A stretch of 64,000 bases of DNA, taken from positions 2,239-66,238 of the forward strand of contig NZ_PJJM01000101.1 of the NCBI RefSeq assembly GCF_002929805.1, given 5' to 3'. The first letter of the stretch is position 1. Each line of letters begins with the position of its first letter. Below the pieces are notes generated by a model. That model searched no databases and was not told where the DNA came from. It was given only the letters and a program-made list of their open reading frames with translations. Of the stretch, positions 42,957-54,990 are shown in pieces. The DNA is from Cryobacterium sp. Y50 (lineage in GTDB: Bacteria; Actinomycetota; Actinomycetes; Actinomycetales; Microbacteriaceae). Made by a program: the position numbers and the translations under genes.

Positions 42957-43637
42957 TCACGCCAGCAGCGCGCGGTACGCCGCCAGAGAATGCGCCGGCA
43001 TGCCGTCGGCGACGACCTCGCCCTCCTCGATCACGATGACTCGGTCGAACTCTTCGACCAGGTGCAGGTGGTGGGTGACCACGATGAGTTGTTGGGGGAG
43101 CGCCTGCCACTGTTCGCTGATGCGCCGGGCGTTGCGGGCGTCGAGCAGAGTGGTCGGTTCGTCGGCGACGATCGTCGCCGGTTGAGCCACGAACACCGCC
43201 GCGAGGGCGAGCAGCTGTTTCTGCCCGCCGGAAAGCCGGTGCGCCGCCTGTTCGGCGTGCTCGCTCAGCCCGAACTGTTTTAGGGCGGCCGCGGTGCGCT
43301 CGGCGATCTGCTCGGCGTTCAGGCCGCGTCGGCGCAGGGTGAACGCGACGTCTTCCTGCACGGTGGGCATCACGATCTGGCTGTCGGGGTTGGTGAAGAT
43401 GAAGCCGACTTTGCGGCGCACCTCGCGGGCATGCCGCGCCACGTTCTGCCCGTCGACCGTGACCGTGCCGCTGGTCGGCGTCACGAGTCCGTTGATCATG
43501 CGCACGAGGGTGGATTTGCCCGAGCCGTTTGCGCCGACGATACCGATCCGATGTCCGTCCAGGGTCAGGTTCACGTCGCGCAGCACTGAGCGGTCACCGA
43601 AAGACTGCGAGACCTGCTCGAAGCGGATGCTGCTCAC
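42957..43637 (-). CDS. bioM: ECF transporter ATPase (biotin)
   Basis: 226 residues starting at GTG 43637, inside the bioY stop (GTGA). Walker A GANGSGKST (about 33-41), signature LSGGQKQLLALA, Walker B TIVADEPTTLLD, switch His in VVTHHLHL. The longer open frame to 43775 lies in bioY and is not coding. Powers biotin uptake with bioN and bioY. Confidence 0.9.
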   Translation of the reverse strand: MSSIRFEQVSQSFGDRSVLRDVNLTLDGHRIGIVGANGSGKSTLVRMINGLVTPTSGTVTVDGQNVARHAREVRRKVGFIFTNPDSQIVMPTVQEDVAFTLRRRGLNAEQIAERTAAALKQFGLSEHAEQAAHRLSGGQKQLLALAAVFVAQPATIVADEPTTLLDARNARRISEQWQALPQQLIVVTHHLHLVEEFDRVIVIEEGEVVADGMPAHSLAAYRALLA

Positions 43638-44242
43638 AGGTGTGCGCGCCGGCCCTTCGGAAGCGCGATCAAGGCGGGATAGGCGCGGTGTACCTGGCTG
43701 GCGACGAGCACAGTTACGATGACTTTGATCAGGTCGCCGGGGATAAACGCGACGTTGAGGCCGATCGTAGTCCACAGCGGCAGGCCGAGGTTGAGCGCCA
43801 TGACCGGAATGCCCAGGAGATAAACGGCGACGATGCCGCCGAGAATGGTGGCGCCGAGAGCCGGCCAGAACGGGTACTTCGGCAGCAAGCGGGCGGTGAG
43901 ATAGCCGGTCACGAATGCACCGAGCAGCCAGCCGTACAGGTAGCCGGCCGCCGGGCTCACGGTGAACACGCCGATTCCGCCGCGGGCACCGGCCAACAGG
44001 GGGAGGCCGACCGCGGTCAGCACCAGGAACAAGAGCACGGCGAGGGTTCCCTTGCGCGGGCCGAGAACGGCCCCGGCCAGCATCACGCCCAGGGTCTGCA
44101 GGGTGATCGGTACCGGACCGATATTGAGCGGCCCCGGAAGGCCGAGCGCAGCGATGAGGGCGGCGAAAATAGCGATCTGGGCGAGATCACGGGCGGGCAA
44201 AGTGCGCCGGGTCGGTGCGCTTGAGTGAATGGTATCGGTCAT
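43634..44242 (-). CDS. bioY: Biotin-specific substrate-capture protein BioY
   Basis: 202 residues, six membrane segments, S-component of an ECF transporter. Diagnostic stretches: GPVPITLQTLGVMLAGAVLG, VLTAVGLPLLAGARGG and SPAAGYLYGW. First gene of the operon; the 89 bp upstream are AT-rich relative to the window and should carry the promoter, but I could not identify a BioQ or BirA site. Confidence 0.92.
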   Translation of the reverse strand: MTDTIHSSAPTRRTLPARDLAQIAIFAALIAALGLPGPLNIGPVPITLQTLGVMLAGAVLGPRKGTLAVLLFLVLTAVGLPLLAGARGGIGVFTVSPAAGYLYGWLLGAFVTGYLTARLLPKYPFWPALGATILGGIVAVYLLGIPVMALNLGLPLWTTIGLNVAFIPGDLIKVIVTVLVASQVHRAYPALIALPKGRRAHL

Positions 44243-44331: not shown

Positions 44332-46131
44332 CTAGCTCGCCAATACGCGGGTGGGAGAGGCCAGGCTGGCGACGATCGCATCTGCTGCTCGCACCAGGGC
44401 CAGGTGGGAGAGTGCCTGCGGGGTATTGCCGGCTTGGTGCCCGTTGGCCACGTCGTACTCCTCAGAGAGCAGGCCGACATCGTTGACGAAGCCGAGCAGG
44501 CGGTTCATCAGTGTGTTGGCGTCATCGATGCGACCAGAGCTGGCGTACTGCTCGACCAGCCAGAACGAGCAGGCCAGAAATGGATGCTCACCCGGCGGCA
44601 ACCCGTCCACCCTGGCAGCCGTGCGGTAGCGCAGGAGCAGGCCATCGTGCATGAGGTTCGCCTCGATCGCGGCCACGGTGCCGAGCATGCGTGGATCGGT
44701 GGATGCGCAGAAGCCGACCTGCGGGAGGACGAGGAGGGAGGCATCCACTTCGGTGCTGCCGTAGTACTGCACGTAGCTGCCGAGGTTTTCGTTGAAACCG
44801 TGGGTTTCGATGTCGGCGCGCACCTCGGCGCGCAGGGCCTTCCAGCGTTCGAGGGGGCCGTCGAGGCCGCACTCCTCGATGCCGCGCACGGCGCGGTCGA
44901 AGGCGGCCCAGACCATGACGCGGGAGTGGGTGAATTCGCGAGCCGCACCGCGCACCTCCCAGATGCCCTGATCGGCCCGGTGCCAGTTCTTCTCGAGAAA
45001 GCTCATGAGAGCGCGTTGCAGGGGCCAGGAGAACTCGGTTTCGTGCACCCCGGCGGCGCGGGCGGCGTGCAGCGCCACCATGACTTCGCCGATCACGTCG
45101 GACTGAAACTGATCGACCGCGCCATTGCCGACCCGAACCGGTGCGGCGCCGTTGTAGCCGGGCAAGCTGGTCAGCTCACGTTCGGGCAGATAGCGCTCGC
45201 CGGAGAGCCCGTACATGATTTGCACGTCGCCCGGGTCGCCGGCGATGGCGCGCAGCAGCCAGGCCCGCCAAGCGTCGGCCTCCATCTCGTAGCCGTGGCT
45301 GAGCAGCACCTCGAGGGTGAGCGAGGCATCGCGCAGCCAGACGTAGCGGTAGTCCCAGTTGCGGGTACCGCCGAACTGCTCCGGCAGCGACGTGGTCGCT
45401 GCAGCCACTATGCCGCCGGTTCGTTCGTGCGTCAGGGCGCGCAGCACGAGCATCGAACGCACCACCTGGGCGTGCAGAGGCCCGTCGTGGCTGCAACGAG
45501 ATGCCCAGCTCTGCCACCAGGAGAGGGTCGAGCGGTAGGCCTCATCGATATCAATGGCTGGTGGAATCTCCCGGTGCGAGCGATACCAGGTCATTTGGGC
45601 ATCGACGATTTCGCCGGCGGGGACATCGAAGTGCGACTCGTGCCGGTGGTCGGAGGCGCGCAGGGCCGGGCCGCGCACGACGATGGCGTCGGGTCCGGCG
45701 ATCGCGACCAGCCCGTGCACCGATTCTCCCTTCAGCTGGCGCACCCACGGAATCGTCGTCGCATAGCCGAAACGGATACGCAGATCTTGCGTCATCGTCA
45801 CCGTGCCGGTAATGCCGCGCACCCGGCGCACCAGGTCGGCCCGACCGTCACCGTGCGGCATGAAGTCGAGCACCTCGACCTGGCCGGTGCTGGTGGTCCA
45901 GAGAGTGGACAGCACGAAGGTATCGCCGTCGTAGCGGCGGGTGGCGATGGCATCGGGATCGGCGGGCGCGAGCAGCCAACGGCCATGGTTTTCATCACCG
46001 AGCAGCGCGCCGAACATCGAGGCGGAGTCGTAGCGGGGCAGGCAGAGCCAGTCGATGCTGCCGTTGAGTCCGACCAGTGCCGCCGAGTGGCAGTCGCTGA
46101 TCAGTGCGTAGTCCTCGATTGGGAGTGCCAT
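44332..46131 (-). CDS. GH15 glycoside hydrolase (glucoamylase or trehalase type)
   Basis: 599 residues. The N-terminal beta-sandwich begins IEDYALISDCHSAALVGLNG, and the catalytic (alpha/alpha)6 barrel shows GGTRNWDYRYVWLRDASLTL, GDPGDVQIMYGLSGE and LACSFWLVEQYA. No signal peptide, so it is cytoplasmic. Actinobacterial members of this subgroup include trehalases as well as glucoamylases; a trehalase role would match the OtsA-OtsB gene 7 kb away, but sequence alone does not decide. Monocistronic. Confidence 0.85.
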   Translation of the reverse strand: MALPIEDYALISDCHSAALVGLNGSIDWLCLPRYDSASMFGALLGDENHGRWLLAPADPDAIATRRYDGDTFVLSTLWTTSTGQVEVLDFMPHGDGRADLVRRVRGITGTVTMTQDLRIRFGYATTIPWVRQLKGESVHGLVAIAGPDAIVVRGPALRASDHRHESHFDVPAGEIVDAQMTWYRSHREIPPAIDIDEAYRSTLSWWQSWASRCSHDGPLHAQVVRSMLVLRALTHERTGGIVAAATTSLPEQFGGTRNWDYRYVWLRDASLTLEVLLSHGYEMEADAWRAWLLRAIAGDPGDVQIMYGLSGERYLPERELTSLPGYNGAAPVRVGNGAVDQFQSDVIGEVMVALHAARAAGVHETEFSWPLQRALMSFLEKNWHRADQGIWEVRGAAREFTHSRVMVWAAFDRAVRGIEECGLDGPLERWKALRAEVRADIETHGFNENLGSYVQYYGSTEVDASLLVLPQVGFCASTDPRMLGTVAAIEANLMHDGLLLRYRTAARVDGLPPGEHPFLACSFWLVEQYASSGRIDDANTLMNRLLGFVNDVGLLSEEYDVANGHQAGNTPQALSHLALVRAADAIVASLASPTRVLAS

Positions 46132-47067: not shown

Positions 47068-47079
47068 AGCCTGTGGTCG
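47068..47079 (+). promoter_or_regulatory. -10 box for a probably leaderless tetR transcript
   Basis: TAGCCT (47068-47073) lies 5 nt before GTG 47079, the spacing of leaderless actinobacterial genes, directly after the second operator. If used, translation would start at 47079 and not at GTG 47073. Confidence 0.4.
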
Positions 47080-47705
47080 TGCCCATTTTTCCCGCGTCCC
47101 CTGTTACACCGCCGGCCGGCGGCATCCGCTCACAAACCGGCGCCGACCTGCGCGCGATCGCGCTGACCCAGTTCGCCTCGGTGGGATTCGCGGCGACTTC
47201 GCTGCAGAATATTGCCGACATCGCGGGCTTCTCCAAGTCCAGCGTGCTCTACCACTTCGCCTCCAAAGAGGCGCTGCTCGAGCAGGTGCTCACGCCGGCC
47301 ATCGATCAGCTCGAGGTCGTTCTCGATCGTTTCGTCACCGAGCCCGAGACCATTGCCACCCGTGAGCGGTTCGTCGACGACTTCATCGACTTTCTGCTCG
47401 AGTTTCGGCTGGAACTGCACACCTTCATCAACCAGGCTCAGTCGCTGCGCGGCATCGCCATCATCGACCGGGCCGGACTGCTCATCGTTCGTCTGGCCGC
47501 GAGCATCTGCCACGACGATGCGAGCAATGAAGACCGCTTGCGGTTCGGCTTCGCCCTCGGCGGTGCCGCCTACTCGCTCGTGGCTGGCATGACCTTTCTG
47601 GGTGAGGCTACTCTGCCCGACGACGACCTGCGTCCGGCGCTGCGCACCGTGATGACCGAACTGCTCGCCCCCGTCTCCGTACACCCGCGCCCCGCTCACT
47701 CCTGA
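47073..47705 (+). CDS. TetR-family transcriptional regulator
   Basis: About 210 residues. Helix-turn-helix in TSLQNIADIAGFSKSSVLYHFASKEALLEQVL (about 42-73); the C-terminal ligand domain is helical and unassigned. First gene of an operon with the MMPL transporter (28 bp downstream) and YhgE/Pip protein, preceded by two palindromes it probably binds. The start is GTG 47073 or 47079. Likely autorepressor and regulator of the transporters. Confidence 0.9.
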   Translation: MVVPIFPASPVTPPAGGIRSQTGADLRAIALTQFASVGFAATSLQNIADIAGFSKSSVLYHFASKEALLEQVLTPAIDQLEVVLDRFVTEPETIATRERFVDDFIDFLLEFRLELHTFINQAQSLRGIAIIDRAGLLIVRLAASICHDDASNEDRLRFGFALGGAAYSLVAGMTFLGEATLPDDDLRPALRTVMTELLAPVSVHPRPAHS

Positions 47706-47733: not shown

Positions 47734-50646
47734 ATGGCAACCGTCCTTTATCGCCTCGGACACTTCGCCTACCGGCGGGCCTGGCTCGTCATCGGCATCT
47801 GGGTGCTGCTGCTCGCCGGGATCTTCGGCGGCGGCGTGGCCCTCAACGGCCAGACGCAGGAGTCCTACGCGATCCCCGGCACCGAGTCGCAGGATGCCAT
47901 CGATTCGCTCGCCGCGGTGTTCCCCGCGGCGGCCGGCGCGCAGGTGCAGGTGGTCTATCACGTGCCGAGCGGGGCATCCGTTGATGATGCGCCGTACCGG
48001 GCCGCCATCGAAAGCATGGCCACAGAGATCGGCGCCATCGACGGCATCGACACCGTGATCACTCCGTTCAGCGAATTCGCGGCGGATGCCGTTTCGAGCG
48101 ACTCCGAGACCGCCTTCAGCCAGGTGGCGCTCCGGGGACAATCCACCGACGTGTCCACCGACACCCTCGATGCCCTTGTGGCCACTCGGTCGATCGGGGA
48201 GGACGCCGGCCTGCAGGTCGCGTTCGGCGGCCAGGTCTTTCAGGACAACACTTTCGGCATCACCGTGACCGAGGTGCTTGGTGTGCTCTTTGCCGGCGTC
48301 GTGCTGCTCATCACCTTCGGTTCTCTGCTCGCCGCCGGGATGCCGCTACTCATGGCCATGATCGGCGTCGGCGTCGCGATCGGCGGCATCACGGCGGTGA
48401 GCGCTTTCGTCTCGGTCTCAAGCACAGCTCCCATGCTCGCGCTCATGCTCGGGCTCGCGGTCGGCATCGACTACTCCCTGTTCATTTTGTCGCGGCATCG
48501 ATCTCAGCTGGCCACCGGCATGAAACCGCACGAATCGGCCGCGACGGCCGTCGCCACCGCCGGCGGTGCAGTGGTCTTCGCCGGCATAACCGTGATCATC
48601 GCCCTGCTCGGACTGCTCGTGGTCGGCATCCCCTTCTTGAGCGTGATGGGACTCGGCGCGGCGTTTGCCGTGCTGGTGTCGATCGGCGTGGCCGTTACAC
48701 TGCTGCCCGCCGTGCTCGGCCTGGTCAAGGACAAGCTCATTCCCAAGGTCGGCGGGCGGGCACACCGCCGGGCGACCACCCCCGACGATGGAAGACCCAC
48801 GCTGGGCCGGCGCTGGGTCGCACTGGTACTCAAAGCCCCGATCGTCGCCGTTATCGTTGTGGTCGGCGTGCTGGGAACACTCGCCATTCCCGCGCTCAGC
48901 CTCGACCTCAACCTGCCGGACGGCGCCTCCGAACCGGTCGGTTCCACCCAGCGTGAGGCCTACCAGCTCATCAACGACGGCTTCGGCCCCGGCTACAACG
49001 GCCCGCTCATCGTCGTCGTCGACATCACCCAGACCACCGACATCTTCGGCGACCTCGACACCATCGCCGCCCAGATTCGAGACCTGCCCGACGTCGCCTA
49101 CGTGGGCACGGGCACCCCGAACCCCACCGTCGACACCGCCATCATTCAGGTGATGCCCGACAGTGCACCGGATGCAGCGGCCACGAAAGACCTCGTGCAA
49201 ATGATTCGAGACCTCGGCCCCGGCATCACCGCGAGCCTCGGCACCCCGATCGCCGTCACCGGCGCGACCGCCGTCGGCATCGACATCTCCAATCGGCTGA
49301 CCGACGCGCTCATTCCATTCGCGCTCATCGTGGTGGGGCTCTCGATCATTCTGCTCATGATGGTGTTTCGCTCCGTCTTCGTGCCGATCAAGGCCGCACT
49401 CGGCTTTTTGCTGTCGGTGTTCGCCGCCCTCGGCGCTACCGTGGCGATCTTTCAGTGGGGCTGGTTTCCCGACCTGTTCGGCGTGGACAACCCCGGCCCG
49501 ATCCTCAGCTTTTTGCCGATTCTGCTCATGGCGGTCTTGTTCGGGCTCGCGATGGACTACGAGGTGTTCCTCGTCTCGGGGATGCGCGAGGAATTCGTGC
49601 GCACCGGCAACGCCCGGCAATCGATCATCCACGGCTTCGCCCATGCCGGCCGGGTCGTCACCGCCGCGGCCCTGATCATGTTCTTCGTCTTCTTCGCGTT
49701 CGTCCCCGACGGCACCGGCGCCATCAAGGGCATCGCCTTCGCGCTCGCCATCGGCGTCTTGCTGGATGCTTTCCTGGTGCGTATGACGCTCGTTCCGGCC
49801 GCGATGGCGCTCGCCGGCAACGCCGCCTGGTGGCTGCCACGCTGGCTCGGGCGGCTGCTGCCGAACGTCGATATTGAGGGGGAGGGACTGCGCCAGCACC
49901 TGCACGACAGCGCATGGGCGGCGGAGCAGACCGATGCGATCACGGCCGACGACGTCGTATTCGGCCTCGAGACCGCGCCGATCGGTCCGCTCAGCCTCAG
50001 TATTCCGGCCGGTTCGCTCGTACGGCTCACCGGAACGGCCGGCCACCGCCGAGTCGTCGCGGCCAGCATCGCCGGACGACTCGATCCGGTCAGTGGACGT
50101 CTGCAGGTGCTCGGCTACCCGCTGCCATCCGACCGGCAGCAGGCCCTGCGCCGGGTTGCTCTTGCCGATATCGGTGAGCATCGAGACACCGAGATCACCG
50201 TCGGAGAACTGCTCGCCGAACGGCTGAGGCTCACCCTGCCCTGGTACCGGACTGCCTCGGTCGCCAGCCGTCGAGCCGACTGGATCAGCAGCATCAACCG
50301 GGCCCTGGGCGCCGGACTGCCAGTGACGGCCGCCACTACGATTTCGGCGCTGCCGGCCCACGGTCGGGCGACCGTGCTGGTCGCGGCGGCGCTCACTGAA
50401 CGCCCAGGCGTGGTCTTCGTCGACCTCGGTGAAGGCCTCCCAGAGCCCCTCCTGGGCCGGGACCTGGCGACGGTACTGGCCGTGCTGGCACCGGCGACAA
50501 CCACCCTGGTGCTCGGCGCTGCACGCTTCGACATCGAGGGCCCGGAATCGGCGCACGATCGACCGTGGCAGCAGATCGATCTCGACGCGCCGTTTGACGA
50601 CGACCGGATGATGGATTCTCTCGATGGAAAGGCCCTGCAACGATGA
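47734..50646 (+). CDS. MMPL/RND-family transporter fused to a degenerate ABC-ATPase-like domain
   Basis: 970 residues. Residues 1-705 form a complete MMPL permease: twelve membrane segments in two halves, each with an extracellular loop, and the GIDYSLFILSRHR and MDYEVFLVSGMREEF motifs. MMPL proteins of this size class usually end near 720. Here about 230 further residues resemble an ABC ATPase (VVFGLETAPIGPLSLSIPAG; GRLDPVSGRLQVLGYPLP), but the P-loop reads GTAGHRRV (about 768), lacking the catalytic lysine. The signature is SALPAHGR (about 871) and the Walker B region FVDLGEGL (about 894) lacks the DE pair. The domain cannot plausibly hydrolyse ATP. It overlaps the YhgE/Pip gene (ATGA). Confidence 0.9.
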   Translation: MATVLYRLGHFAYRRAWLVIGIWVLLLAGIFGGGVALNGQTQESYAIPGTESQDAIDSLAAVFPAAAGAQVQVVYHVPSGASVDDAPYRAAIESMATEIGAIDGIDTVITPFSEFAADAVSSDSETAFSQVALRGQSTDVSTDTLDALVATRSIGEDAGLQVAFGGQVFQDNTFGITVTEVLGVLFAGVVLLITFGSLLAAGMPLLMAMIGVGVAIGGITAVSAFVSVSSTAPMLALMLGLAVGIDYSLFILSRHRSQLATGMKPHESAATAVATAGGAVVFAGITVIIALLGLLVVGIPFLSVMGLGAAFAVLVSIGVAVTLLPAVLGLVKDKLIPKVGGRAHRRATTPDDGRPTLGRRWVALVLKAPIVAVIVVVGVLGTLAIPALSLDLNLPDGASEPVGSTQREAYQLINDGFGPGYNGPLIVVVDITQTTDIFGDLDTIAAQIRDLPDVAYVGTGTPNPTVDTAIIQVMPDSAPDAAATKDLVQMIRDLGPGITASLGTPIAVTGATAVGIDISNRLTDALIPFALIVVGLSIILLMMVFRSVFVPIKAALGFLLSVFAALGATVAIFQWGWFPDLFGVDNPGPILSFLPILLMAVLFGLAMDYEVFLVSGMREEFVRTGNARQSIIHGFAHAGRVVTAAALIMFFVFFAFVPDGTGAIKGIAFALAIGVLLDAFLVRMTLVPAAMALAGNAAWWLPRWLGRLLPNVDIEGEGLRQHLHDSAWAAEQTDAITADDVVFGLETAPIGPLSLSIPAGSLVRLTGTAGHRRVVAASIAGRLDPVSGRLQVLGYPLPSDRQQALRRVALADIGEHRDTEITVGELLAERLRLTLPWYRTASVASRRADWISSINRALGAGLPVTAATTISALPAHGRATVLVAAALTERPGVVFVDLGEGLPEPLLGRDLATVLAVLAPATTTLVLGAARFDIEGPESAHDRPWQQIDLDAPFDDDRMMDSLDGKALQR

Positions 50647-52571
50647 GCACCGCACTCGACAAACTGTTCAGCCGCGGCCCGCGGCGGCGGCGGCTGACCG
50701 TCGCCGCTCTCGTGACCGTCGTGGTCGCCGTGCCGCTTGCCGTGGCCGGCCTGTTCACCGCGGCTCTTGCCTCGGCCGATGACCGGGTCGACACCATCCC
50801 CGCGATCGTGGTGAACAACGACGAATCCGTCACGACCATACTGCCGGACGGCACAGAACAGCAGGTGCTGGCCGGCCGGTTGCTCGTGACCGAGCTGACC
50901 GCGCCCAGCCCCAGCGAAGCCGGCGCTGACAGCACGGCCGGATTCGACTGGACCATCTCGAACACGGCCGACGCGCAAGCGGCGCTCGCCGCCGGAGACG
51001 CCTACGCGATTCTGACTATCCCCAGGGATTTCTCCGCCTCGATCACCTCGCTCTCGGGCAGCAGTCCGGTGCAGGCAGACCTCGATATTCGCACCGATGA
51101 TGCCCATTCCTACCTCGCTGGGTCGCTGGCCCAATCGGTCGGCTCCGCCATGACGGGTGCCTTCGGTCAGGCGATCACCGCGCAGTATCTCGAAGGCCTG
51201 TACACCAATCTCGCCCTGCTGGGCTCATCACTCACGGATGCCGCCGACGGCGCGGCCGCGCTCTCCACCGGAGTGAGCGGGCTCGCGACCGGCCTCGATT
51301 CCCTTGCGGCGGGCACCGCGACGGCTGCTACCGGCGCGGCATCCGCTGCCAGCGGAGCGACGAGTTACGCCTCGGGCGTCGCCTCCTATAGCGATGGCGT
51401 CACCGGGTTGAGCGCGGGGCTGACCCAGCTGAACTCCGGCGCCATAGCGCTGGCTCCACTCGAAACCGGGCTCCCAGCCTACGCCTCCGGAGTGCAGGGA
51501 ACGGCGGCAGCGTTCACGGCCCTCAACGCGCAGATGCAGGCCGACCCGAACGTCGCAGCCTACGCCGGCGCGCTCGCACAAATTCAGGGTGGTCTGACCG
51601 CGCTCGGCGCCCAGAGCTCGGGCATCGGCGCGGCCGGTACGGGAATCGGGTCGGTGCTTGAGGGCATCTCGTCGAGTGCGACCGGTGCGGGCACGCTCGC
51701 TGCCGGCGGCCCGGCCCTGTCGAGCGGCGCCAGCGATCTCGCGACCGGTGTGCAGGGAATTTCCGCCGGGCTCGGTACCCTAGCTTCTGGCACCCAGTCG
51801 GCCCAGACCGGGGTGCACGCACTGGAAGCCGGGGCCGGCGAACTCGCGACCGGGCTGGCGGACGGCGCGGCGGGGGCATCCGTTTTCACCGATACCGATG
51901 CCGTCACCACCGCCGCGGTCGTCTCCGAACCGGTCAGTGTCACGACCGCGCGCGACCATGCGATCGACTCGGTCGGCCCGATCATCGGCATGATTTTCGT
52001 GCCGGTCGGCCTGTGGATCGGCGCCCTCGTTGTCTTTCTGCTGTTCAGACCGCTCACAGCAGCCGCCCTGGCTTCGACCACAAGCACCGGCCGGTTGCTG
52101 CGTCGCGGCCTCGGCCGTTCCTTCGCCATCGTCGCCGGCCAAGCCGTGCTGGTCACCGTGCTGCTGCATACCGCTCTCGATGTGGCGTGGACGCTGCTGC
52201 CGGCCACCCTCGGCTTCACCCTGCTGCTGGCCTTCGTGTTTGTGGCCGTGCATCACTGGCTGAGCGTCGCGTTCGGGCGGGTCGGCATCATCATCTCGCT
52301 CGTGCTGCTCGCCCTACAACTCGCCTCGGCGAGCGGGCTGTACCCGATCGAACTCGTCGCCGCCCCGTTCCAAACTTTGAGCCCCTTGCTTCCGCTGACC
52401 TGGGCGGTGACCGGCCTGCAGGCGATCGTCAGTGAAAGTGGGGGAGCGGATGTTGCCGCCGCCGCCGCAGTACTGCTCCTGTTCGCGATCGGTAGCGTGC
52501 TGCTCTCGTTCTGGAGTGTGGCCCGAGCACGCGGAGCTCGCTCGTTCGGGCTGGGGCTAGCCCGGGCGTAG
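50643..52571 (+). CDS. YhgE/Pip family membrane protein
   Basis: 642 residues. One N-terminal membrane segment (about 18-42), a large extracellular region (43-430) and a C-terminal ABC-2-type bundle of five or six membrane segments (430-630). The extracellular region contains imperfect 7-11-residue Ala/Gly/Ser/Leu repeats (LSTGVSGLATGLDSLAAGT; LAAGGPALSSGASDLATGV), probably a long helical hairpin as in phage-infection proteins and EsaA. Starts inside the stop of the MMPL gene. Likely acts with the MMPL fusion in export or cell-envelope assembly; substrate unknown. Confidence 0.85.
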   Translation: MSTALDKLFSRGPRRRRLTVAALVTVVVAVPLAVAGLFTAALASADDRVDTIPAIVVNNDESVTTILPDGTEQQVLAGRLLVTELTAPSPSEAGADSTAGFDWTISNTADAQAALAAGDAYAILTIPRDFSASITSLSGSSPVQADLDIRTDDAHSYLAGSLAQSVGSAMTGAFGQAITAQYLEGLYTNLALLGSSLTDAADGAAALSTGVSGLATGLDSLAAGTATAATGAASAASGATSYASGVASYSDGVTGLSAGLTQLNSGAIALAPLETGLPAYASGVQGTAAAFTALNAQMQADPNVAAYAGALAQIQGGLTALGAQSSGIGAAGTGIGSVLEGISSSATGAGTLAAGGPALSSGASDLATGVQGISAGLGTLASGTQSAQTGVHALEAGAGELATGLADGAAGASVFTDTDAVTTAAVVSEPVSVTTARDHAIDSVGPIIGMIFVPVGLWIGALVVFLLFRPLTAAALASTTSTGRLLRRGLGRSFAIVAGQAVLVTVLLHTALDVAWTLLPATLGFTLLLAFVFVAVHHWLSVAFGRVGIIISLVLLALQLASASGLYPIELVAAPFQTLSPLLPLTWAVTGLQAIVSESGGADVAAAAAVLLLFAIGSVLLSFWSVARARGARSFGLGLARA

Positions 52572-52857: not shown

Positions 52858-54990
52858 GTGACCTGGCGCACGTCACCCGGCGGGCTGGTCACCGCACTCG
52901 AACCGCTCATGCGTGCGTCAAACGGTGCTTGGGTCGGCTGGCCCGGCGTCGCCGACCGCGATTTCGCGCCCTTTGAGAACGACGGGATCTCGCTCGTTCC
53001 GGTGCGGCTGAATGAAGTGGACGTCGAGGACTACTACGAGGGTTTTTCCAACGACACGCTCTGGCCGCTCTATCACGACGTCATCGCACCGCCGAGCTTT
53101 CACCGCGAGACCTGGGATGCCTACGTCACCGTCAACCGCCGATTCGCGGAGGCCGCCGCTGCCGTGGCCGCCCCGGGCGCCACAGTGTGGGTGCATGACT
53201 ACCAGCTACAGCTCGTGCCGCGCCTGCTGCGCGACGCCCGACCCGACCTCGTCATCGGCTTCTTCAACCACATTCCGTTTCCGTCCTACGGCATCTACGC
53301 GCAGCTGCCCTGGCGCAAGCAAATTCTGCACGGTCTGCTAGGCGCCGACGTCATCGGCTTTCAGCGACTGGAGGACGCCGGCAACTTTTCGCGCGCGGTG
53401 CGTCGCCTCTACGGCTATCCGACCCGCGGCGTCGTCATCGACGTGCCGACCGGCGAGAACGGTCAAAACAGCGCAGAGTCCCGTCGCGTCATCGCGAAAC
53501 ACTTTCCCATCTCGATCGACGCGGCTGCCTTCGAAGAGCTGGCCAGGAGCCCCGAGATTCAGGCCCGCGCTCGGCAGATTCGGGAGGACCTCGGCAACCC
53601 GAAAACGCTTATGCTAGGCGTCGACCGGCTCGACTACACCAAGGGCATCGGCCACCGTCTCAAGGCCTTCGGGGAGCTGCTCGCCGACGGACGCCTGAGT
53701 GTCGAAGACGTCACTCTGGTGCAGGTCGCGAGTCCGTCCCGCGAACGGGTGAGTACCTATATGGCCCTGCGCGACGAGATCGAACTCGCCGTCGGTCGAC
53801 TCAACGGCGACTTCTCCACGATCAGCCACACCGCCATCAGCTATCACCACCACAGCTACCCGCGTGAAGAAATGGTCGCGATGTATCTCGCCGCTGACGT
53901 CATGCTCGTCACCGCGCTGCGCGACGGCATGAACCTCGTGGCCAAGGAATACGTCGCCGTGCGCTTCGATGCCGACGGGGTGCTCGTGCTGAGCGAGTTC
54001 GCCGGCGCCGCCGATGAACTCAAACAGGCCATCCTGATCAATCCGCACGACATCGACGGCACCAAGGACGCCATCGTGCGCGCGGTCGAGATGCCCCGGC
54101 GGGAACGTGCCAGACGTATGCGGTCGCTGCGCCGCAAGGTCGCGGAGAACGATGTTGCTGCTTGGTCGGCCTCGTTCCTGCGAGCCCTCACCGGCGGCGC
54201 CGCCGTGGCGGCCGGCATCTCCGAGGATCTCGACCTGGCCCTGCAGAGCCTTGCCGGTGCCGAGAACGTGCTCATCGCCCTCGACTTCGACGGGACCCTA
54301 GCCCCGCACGTTGACCACCCCGAAGACGCCCGCGCAATCACCGGCACCCGGGAAGCCGTTCAAGCCCTGCTCGACCTACCCGGGGTGCGCGTAGCCCTTG
54401 TCTCTGGGCGCGCTCTGGTGAGCCTGCAACACGTCGCCCAGCCGCAGAGTTCGGTGTTGCTCACTGGCTCGCACGGTATCGAGGTTCAACTGGACACCCC
54501 CGAGATTGAGCTGAACCTGGTCTCCTCCGAGCTCGAACAGCTCGACACCCTCGCCCGGGTGCTCACGAGCATCTCCGGTTCGATCGCCGGGACCACCATC
54601 GAGCGCAAGCCCGCCGGTCTGGCCCTGCACACCCGACTCGCGACCCAAAAAGACGGGCAAACGGCCCAGCGCGAGGCGAGGGAACAACTCACTGACCAGC
54701 TGCCCGGACTCACCGTTCGCGAAGGTAAGAACGTGCTGGAATTTTCGGTGCGCTCCAGTACCAAGGGCGATGCCCTGGAGAAGCTGCGCGACTATACCGG
54801 GGCCGACCGGGTGTTTTACGCCGGCGACGATGTGACCGATGAAGACGCTTTCGCAGCATTGCGCGACGACGACCTCGGCCTCAAGATCGGCCAGGGCGCG
54901 ACCCTCGCCGGCTACCGCGTGCGCAGCCCCAAAGAAGTCACCCAGGTTCTGGTGCGCATCGCCGAACTCCGTGCGGGCCTTGCGCTCTGA
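52858..54990 (+). CDS. Bifunctional trehalose-6-phosphate synthase/phosphatase, 5' end anomalous
   Basis: At least 710 residues from GTG 52858. OtsA part (to about 455): GNPKTLMLGVDRLDYTKGI, RDGMNLVAKEYVAVR; OtsB part (about 470-705): ALDFDGTLAPHVDHP, LVSGRALVSL, YAGDDVTDEDAF. It makes trehalose from UDP-glucose and glucose-6-phosphate, then dephosphorylates it. The essential N-terminal motif TYTLVVVSNRLPV lies upstream (52792-52836) in the same frame but before any canonical start. Either a rare start (ATT 52681 region) is used or a 1-nt deletion separates it from ATG 52634/52775. Both catalytic domains are otherwise intact. Confidence 0.88.
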   Translation: MTWRTSPGGLVTALEPLMRASNGAWVGWPGVADRDFAPFENDGISLVPVRLNEVDVEDYYEGFSNDTLWPLYHDVIAPPSFHRETWDAYVTVNRRFAEAAAAVAAPGATVWVHDYQLQLVPRLLRDARPDLVIGFFNHIPFPSYGIYAQLPWRKQILHGLLGADVIGFQRLEDAGNFSRAVRRLYGYPTRGVVIDVPTGENGQNSAESRRVIAKHFPISIDAAAFEELARSPEIQARARQIREDLGNPKTLMLGVDRLDYTKGIGHRLKAFGELLADGRLSVEDVTLVQVASPSRERVSTYMALRDEIELAVGRLNGDFSTISHTAISYHHHSYPREEMVAMYLAADVMLVTALRDGMNLVAKEYVAVRFDADGVLVLSEFAGAADELKQAILINPHDIDGTKDAIVRAVEMPRRERARRMRSLRRKVAENDVAAWSASFLRALTGGAAVAAGISEDLDLALQSLAGAENVLIALDFDGTLAPHVDHPEDARAITGTREAVQALLDLPGVRVALVSGRALVSLQHVAQPQSSVLLTGSHGIEVQLDTPEIELNLVSSELEQLDTLARVLTSISGSIAGTTIERKPAGLALHTRLATQKDGQTAQREAREQLTDQLPGLTVREGKNVLEFSVRSSTKGDALEKLRDYTGADRVFYAGDDVTDEDAFAALRDDDLGLKIGQGATLAGYRVRSPKEVTQVLVRIAELRAGLAL

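Follow-up and report, generated by a model that had tools for sequence, protein, structure and literature searches.

This report concerns two overlapping genes in a 64,000-nucleotide stretch of DNA from Cryobacterium sp. Y50 (assembly GCF_002929805.1, contig NZ_PJJM01000101.1, positions 2,239 to 66,238), the whole of which is called the window below. The first gene encodes an MMPL transporter whose C-terminal tail is a complete nucleotide-binding domain (NBD) fold of the ATP-binding cassette (ABC) kind, an identity that is well supported, and the second encodes a YhgE/Pip protein. The tail is probably the NBD of the YhgE partner, captured by an MMPL proton pump, and this origin is well supported by sequence comparison. 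We consider it reasonably likely that the NBD, now catalytically dead, clamps the proton-driven MMPL pump onto the membrane and stalk unit formed by YhgE, whose ABC partner it would once have been. An earlier note on this DNA had described the fusion and suggested such a docking role.

Gene pair and the MMPL half

The two open reading frames (ORFs) encode proteins of 970 and 642 aa and share the letters ATGA, and both the coordinates and the 4-bp overlap given earlier were confirmed exactly. Among named relatives, the one nearest to the MMPL protein comes from Cryobacterium levicorallinum, with 96% identity in the best segment and a match spanning residues 1-970. The features of the pair are as follows, in window positions; AF2 stands for AlphaFold2.

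47734..50646, plus strand: gene of the MMPL-pseudo-NBD fusion, 970 aa (ORF, Pfam)
47734..49890, plus strand: MMPL transporter part (RND, resistance-nodulation-division; HAE-2-like), about residues 1-719 (PF03176, MmpL3 match)
48469..48474, plus strand: Asp246-Tyr247, putative proton-relay pair
49555..49560, plus strand: Asp608-Tyr609, second putative proton-relay pair
49942..50538, plus strand: pseudo-NBD, about residues 737-935 (AF2 model, Foldseek and VIA matches to ABC NBDs)
50032..50052, plus strand: former Walker A, residues 767-773 (GTAGHRR)
50338..50367, plus strand: former signature region, residues 869-878
50410..50427, plus strand: Walker B strand, residues 893-898, with Asp897 kept and Leu898 in place of the catalytic Glu
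50643..50646, plus strand: ATGA stop/start overlap of both genes
50643..52571, plus strand: YhgE/Pip gene, 642 aa (TIGR03061 E 9.1e-31, TIGR03062 E 2.1e-44)
51168..51881, plus strand: predicted YhgE coiled-coil stalk, residues 176-413, with xxxLxxG repeats (AF2 helices, TIGR03057)
51915..52529, plus strand: predicted ABC-2/ABCG-like membrane bundle of YhgE, residues 425-629 (TIGR03062, VIA match to ABCG2)
52038..52124, plus strand: YhgE loop between membrane helices 2 and 3, residues 466-494, a candidate NBD docking site on the ABCG-like model

Two PF03176 stretches correspond to both MMPL halves (E 7.9e-76), and structures of MmpL3 were matched over residues 11-711 (7nvh, E 3.9e-55). The Asp-Tyr pairs D246-Y247 and D608-Y609 align with the IDY and TDYE pairs of MmpL3, which we take to be its proton-relay residues. 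Relatives were collected as 80 named loci, which are matches found by likeness to the fusion with flanks reaching at most 5 kb beyond the match. Motifs were counted in 82 aligned rows consisting of the window, the 80 named loci and locus L031, whose tail is identical to that of L095. GIDY and MDY[EQ]VF are each kept in 81 of these rows, the remaining row being gapped. The alignment of both pairs with MmpL3 agrees with the earlier description of an RND proton pump, and the MMPL half would act as a proton-driven, MmpL3-like pump.

Fold of the C-terminal tail

The window protein stayed below threshold against Pfam ABC_tran (E 0.028, 15.5 bits, cut-off 25). A profile of the tail built from 30 relatives (20 fused and 10 standalone) matched 448 distinct PDB sequences at E<=0.01, the best being ABCA3 (1.5e-20), and fused homologues with an intact Walker A exceeded the Pfam cut-off (55.4 bits for L189 and 47.1 bits for L191). 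The AF2 model of residues 734-970, obtained with 48 sequences, has a pLDDT of 91.8 and a pTM of 0.86. Foldseek found 1092 matches to this model at E<=0.001, and all 50 matches listed are, by title, ABC proteins or complexes containing one. The model aligns with ABC NBDs over 203-209 residues; comparison by VIA gave Z 18.5 against FtsE (6z4w; 203 residues, 3.1 Å) and Z>=8 in 998 of 998 chains compared. The profile search, AF2, Foldseek and VIA together exclude a chance match or an unrelated fold. The NBD layout that had been read from the sequence was therefore upheld, and structure prediction, which the earlier note had named as its test, returned an ABC NBD fold and not an unrelated one. A peculiarity of one strain is likewise excluded, since the fusion recurs across the named loci. 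The strain's own genome shows one copy of the tail domain and one YhgE, and a 695-aa frame is its single further MMPL match.

Loss of the catalytic residues

The motifs GTAGHRRV, SALPAHGR and FVDLGEGL had all been read correctly as the P-loop, signature and Walker B regions. The P-loop lysine is missing as described, to which can be added that the loop has one residue fewer than its standalone counterparts and that, in the alignment, two arginines occupy the places of the Lys and the Ser/Thr. The former Walker A reads G-x4-R-R in the window's family, with R772 in 80 of the 82 rows and R773 in 79 (two are gapped and one has Gln). The claim that Walker B lacks the DE pair was right for the catalytic Glu and wrong for the Asp. 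Asp897 is retained in 72 of the 82 rows, and position 898, the site of the catalytic Glu, is occupied by Leu (44), Gln (20), Arg (6), Phe (4), Val (2), Ile (1) or Thr (1), is gapped in 4 rows and is never Glu. Motif loss that is shared across 82 rows is a conserved state and not a sequencing slip. A normal ABC ATPase site in the fusion protein is excluded by G-x4-RR, the absence of SGG and the absence of Glu at 898, and hydrolysis of ATP is not expected from the window tail, which is without the Walker A Lys, the signature and the catalytic Glu.

The comparison was extended to 160 aligned YhgE-partner NBDs comprising 76 named fused, 32 other fused and 52 standalone domains. GK[ST] at Walker A is kept in 0 of the 76, 7 of the 32 and 10 of the 52, and a further 22 of the standalone domains have GR[ST], so that 32 of 52 carry one or the other. 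None of the 160 partner NBDs has the SGG signature, which 4 of 5 outgroup rows show, and none has the catalytic Glu, present in 5 of 5. The aligned H-loop column has His in 1 of 160 partner NBDs and in just 3 of 5 outgroup rows, and some of the domains are cut short. Of the 32 other fused domains, 17 have the helical subdomain deleted. The degeneracy is not special to the fusion, since none of the 52 standalone NBDs has SGG or the catalytic Glu. Homologues that keep intact Walker A/B residues and hydrolyse ATP, which the earlier note had set as grounds for abandoning its reading, are matched in part: Walker A is intact in 7 of 108 fused homologues (L187-L192 and L119), and their signature and Glu are missing too.

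Conservation scores from a 48-row alignment (mean 0.58 over 203 columns) place the former P-loop (residues 766-783; 0.74) and the segment at 786-798 (0.77) at the top of ten segments that we defined, and the site therefore looks remodelled, not rotting. This conservation, the near-invariant R772 and the GK[ST] or GR[ST] kept in many standalone partners are what could speak for a ligand sensor, in which the arginine-pair P-loop would take up a ligand (a nucleotide or other phosphorylated compound, or a lipid head group) and the tail would gate MMPL or YhgE. However, the change of the Walker A Ser/Thr to Arg, the shorter loop and the missing signature make ordinary Mg-ATP binding unlikely, and in many other fused domains the residues at this place differ or the helical subdomain is missing. 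We regard a sensor as an unlikely explanation.

The YhgE partner

The next gene had been described as a YhgE/Pip gene with an ABC-2-type bundle and a repeat-rich stalk, and the profiles agree. The protein exceeds the cut-offs of TIGR03061 (106.7 bits, cut-off 96.15) and TIGR03062 (151.6 bits, cut-off 102.2), and ABC2_membrane_3 (PF12698) is above its cut-off (E 4.2e-14). TIGR03057 scores 22.6 bits (cut-off 18.6), and four xxxLxxG stretches form the stalk, a heptad-repeat region flanked by the N- and C-terminal YhgE domains. The AF2 model (49 sequences; pLDDT 79.1, pTM 0.51) places the first membrane helix within about residues 13-51 and stalk helices at 176-268, 271-299 and 302-413, including helices of 93 and 112 residues. 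By VIA, the membrane bundle matched ABCG2 with Z 17.2 (211 residues, 4.1 Å, 7% identity), and ABCG proteins ranked first; as unrelated helical bundles can reach Z of about 13-14 according to the tool's note, a Z of 17 is good and not overwhelming. In a Foldseek search with the whole model, coiled coils of unrelated proteins came on top, and ABCG25 occupied ranks 10, 21, 33 and 43 (E 0.02-0.46). According to PMC3924187, homologues of the PIP family include proteins of the ABC-2 superfamily. These models predict that YhgE consists of a membrane domain of type V (ABC-2, ABCG-like) and a long coiled-coil stalk that is extracellular.

Conservation of the gene neighbourhood

A YhgE homologue was found in 77 of the 80 named loci, directly behind the fusion in 76 (both YhgE profiles being required), and in 25 of 26 more distant fused loci, which makes 102 of 106 together. 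YhgE was not found in L058 and L106, where the contig ends within the MMPL frame, in L099, which has a shortened tail (870-aa frame) and whose contig ends about 300 bases after the frame, and in L122 of the distant set, whose contig ends 88 bases past the frame. The genes overlap by 4 bp in 96 of the 108 fused and 28 of the 53 standalone pairs, taking the start codon nearest the stop, a choice that leans towards overlap. L047 and L093 have a fragmented MMPL frame in the fusion and a YhgE frame that is still open.

The constancy of YhgE bears on the possibility of the tail being a neutral remnant left by an ancient fusion of genes, with MMPL and YhgE co-transcribed and acting separately. The catalytic motifs are gone, the whole helical subdomain has disappeared from more than half of the other fused domains and the tail of L099 is shortened, all of which would suit a relic; against it, the fold and the near-invariant residues of the tail persist, and YhgE is found with it in nearly all loci. 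A relic is improbable on this evidence.

The same loci bear on a pairing of the tail with a canonical ABC ATPase encoded elsewhere, which would give one working and one dead site and leave YhgE still run by ATP. Heterodimeric ABC exporters have degenerate NBDs paired with active ones and offer a precedent, and the genome has canonical ABC ATPases, for instance at window positions 42960-43775. Yet a scan of the operon's strand with our own profile found no further NBD within the named loci and their flanks of at most 5 kb, the standalone partners are degenerate too, and the strain's genome has no second domain of the tail kind. Of the explanations weighed here, this pairing is the least probable.

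The fused-domain profile was also run against whole genomes. At the level of the class, 76 of 296 genomes matched it at E<=1e-10, many of the weaker matches being standalone NBDs by frame length. A sample of the phylum gave matches at E<=1e-14 in 12 of 246 genomes, every one of them a member of the window's class. In most genomes 8 to 17 candidates were scored, and misses are possible in both surveys.

Other genes flank the pair:

47073..47705, plus strand: TetR-family regulator gene, directly 5' of the MMPL gene (PF00440, E 5e-12)
52858..54990, plus strand: OtsA-OtsB (trehalose-phosphate synthase/phosphatase) gene, downstream, linkage only (PF00982 E 2.3e-138, PF02358 E 6.2e-30)

A TetR homologue ends less than 100 bases before the MMPL start in 79 of the 80 named loci and 133 bases before it in L105, and a TetR BLAST match was obtained in 8 of 27 more distant loci. 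A gene for a GH15 trehalase-like protein lies upstream of the fusion at window positions 44332-46131. Within the flanks of the named loci, OtsA had a BLAST match in 67 of 80 and GH15 in 12 of 80. The trehalose linkage was weighed as a clue to the substrate and was then not used. Further upstream, BioY and an ordinary ABC ATPase (PF00005, 105.7 bits) are encoded on the minus strand at 42957-44242 and are likely to form a biotin ECF transporter.

Origin of the tail

The tail's closest standalone relatives proved to be encoded immediately 5' of YhgE genes (L139-L143, L145 and L146), and for this reason 40 loci were then chosen by YhgE match alone. These loci, with 42 YhgE ORFs, were hand-picked over families among the best YhgE matches listed in the window's order. 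Directly upstream of the 42 YhgE ORFs there were 30 standalone NBD-like ORFs and one MMPL fusion, and 11 had neither. Random positions in the survey loci had such a neighbour in 0.5% of cases for non-partner NBDs and in 3.4% with partners counted. A tail-less MMPL neighbour was found for none of the 42 surveyed YhgE ORFs, the sole MMPL neighbour being of the fused kind; as MMPL-linked YhgE scores low among the best matches listed, the share of 1 in 42 is not a true frequency. The NBD-like label of the 30 upstream ORFs comes from our own profile, built partly from YhgE-neighbour NBDs, with E 3e-9 or better in all, and for those invisible to Pfam it stands on this profile and on position. When eight of the upstream domains were compared with Pfam ABC_tran, three passed the cut-off, two were below it and three had no hit at E<=0.1. 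Three items were left out: L129, an ordinary ABC protein with no fusion and no YhgE; L144, whose contig starts right beside the NBD and which gave no YhgE; and, from the trees and the motif table, the fragment of L203 with start 183.

Of the 76 named pairs, 13 entered the trees. In the NBD tree of 102 rows, 97 YhgE-partner NBDs, fused and standalone, stood apart from 5 canonical ABC rows with an SH-aLRT of 99. In the YhgE tree of 108 rows, the MMPL-linked YhgEs formed one side of a branch with an SH-aLRT of 81, and 5 of the 7 fusions with an intact Walker A (L187-L191) adjoined standalone partners. As NBDs lie upstream of YhgE and the tail groups with them, the tail is read as the YhgE partner's own NBD. 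The link between fusion and YhgE is in this respect stronger than had first been claimed. One capture event is the simplest history and is favoured, though not proved.

The loss of catalysis appears to have been stepwise. By the fewest changes on the YhgE tree, the Walker A state changed at least 6 times and the helical deletion arose at least 2 times. A count of changes gives no direction, and that Walker A was lost and not gained is our reading; on it, Walker A was probably lost several times. We also read the record as one in which hydrolysis had already become weak or been lost when the fusion arose, and ATP binding was abandoned afterwards, more than once.

Several other arrangements were seen among the YhgE loci. 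L140 and L145 each hold two YhgE/Pip systems head to head, each with an NBD-like gene of a different class. L199 and L203 have tandem NBD and YhgE units, one NBD of L203 being in fragments. L148 and L149 have tandem YhgE-YhgE pairs with no neighbour matching the NBD profile, and the YhgE tree places them on a long branch. In L150, L151, L160, L166, L186 and relatives, the NBD-like genes that partner YhgE are of a second class, with no recognisable Walker A; by eye, these have an [ST/LV]-P-D-R-H-like motif at the place of Walker B.

Proposed mechanism

In the mechanism that we favour, the tail would have lost catalysis and retained the fold with which NBDs bind ABC membrane domains. In this way it would clamp the MMPL pump onto YhgE, perhaps through the YhgE loop between membrane helices 2 and 3. 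ABCG proteins touch their NBDs through the corresponding loop. In YhgE this loop, at residues 466-494, has by eye a similar pattern in the fused and the standalone partners. Proton-driven movement of MMPL may then replace the ATP stroke or make it needless, and the YhgE stalk might guide the exported substrate away from the membrane, as has been proposed for the coiled-coil tube of MmpL5. Docking, energy transfer and conduit are all inferred. By kinship to MmpL3, the substrate may be a hydrophobic compound or a glycolipid. In Saccharopolyspora hirsuta exposed to cholesterol, neighbouring genes for YhgE (F1721_04135) and MMPL (F1721_04140) were up 3.82- and 3.33-fold (PMC9782250, Table 2), this MMPL being a possible counterpart of the fusion.

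A wider form of this idea is more tentative. The pair could be an RND-ABC hybrid exporter in which MMPL is coupled mechanically, through the dead NBD, to an ABC-2 domain with a wall-spanning stalk, ATP having been exchanged for protons. As part of it, the fusion might be one branch of a wider actinobacterial family whose YhgE/Pip-partner NBDs repeatedly gave up catalysis, which we likewise hold to be possible and somewhat short of an even chance.

Several points weigh against the clamp and against the origin proposed for the tail. The named loci were picked by likeness to the fusion, and a tail-less MMPL beside YhgE could be missed for that reason. In the survey made by YhgE match, 11 of the 42 ORFs had no NBD neighbour, and some standalone NBD-like domains are so degenerate as to be invisible to Pfam (L150, L151 and L160). 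Only five rows, four of which are near-copies, make up the outgroup of the NBD tree, and 3 changes are needed on that tree to account for the fused set, which makes it a weak test of a single fusion. The support of 81 on the YhgE tree is modest, and both trees were quick ones with long branches. The YhgE model has a pTM of 0.51, and its best Foldseek match to an ABCG protein has an E of only 0.02. Seven of 108 fused domains keep Walker A, as do 32 of 52 standalone ones when GR[ST] is counted, so that nucleotide binding may matter in relatives. Finally, where the helical subdomain is deleted, as in 17 of the 32 other fused domains, docking must differ.

Comparison with known systems

No description of an MMPL-NBD fusion, of YhgE-NBD pairs or of YhgE with an MMPL pump was found in the open-access literature that was searched. 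The parts are known; that they are combined, and that catalysis was lost across the whole family, appears not to have been described there. If the proposed reading is true, the motor of an ABC transporter can be swapped for a proton pump while the docking domain stays, and two transporter superfamilies that are usually treated apart are joined. YhgE/Pip, known mainly as a phage-infection protein, would then supply the membrane portion and the stalk of a (pseudo-)ABC exporter, a role testable in harmless laboratory actinobacteria.

MmpL3 and other MmpL/HAE-2 RND transporters resemble the fusion in sequence over residues 11-711 and in the Asp-Tyr pairs. No ABC NBD fold is known at the C-terminus of MmpL3 or MmpL5. 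For MmpL5, a periplasmic coiled-coil tube belonging to the transporter itself has been proposed (PMC12501195), whereas the coiled coil here is on YhgE, a separate partner. The YhgE/Pip family (phage infection protein, TCDB 9.B.74) is matched above cut-off by TIGR03061 and TIGR03062, and the searches gave no account of its pairing with an NBD or of its working with an MMPL pump. YueB is the receptor of phage SPP1 (PMC3701619), and its EsaA relatives gave the window YhgE a match only below threshold. Type V ABC exporters such as ABCG2 and ABCG25 share with the pair the fold of the YhgE bundle, the NBD fold of the tail and an NBD encoded ahead of the membrane domain. They differ in that intact ATPase motifs are missing here and in that the NBD is joined to a proton-driven pump, not to the membrane domain. 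The linked NBD lacks Walker A, signature and Glu and is thus not the ATPase NBD that such exporters have of their own, although an ATPase encoded elsewhere is possible. The standalone NBD and YhgE pairs of Actinomycetes (such as L139, L157 and L196) have no MMPL and often keep Walker A, as GK or GR in 32 of 52, and they share with the window pair the NBD group, the gene order and often the 4-bp overlap.

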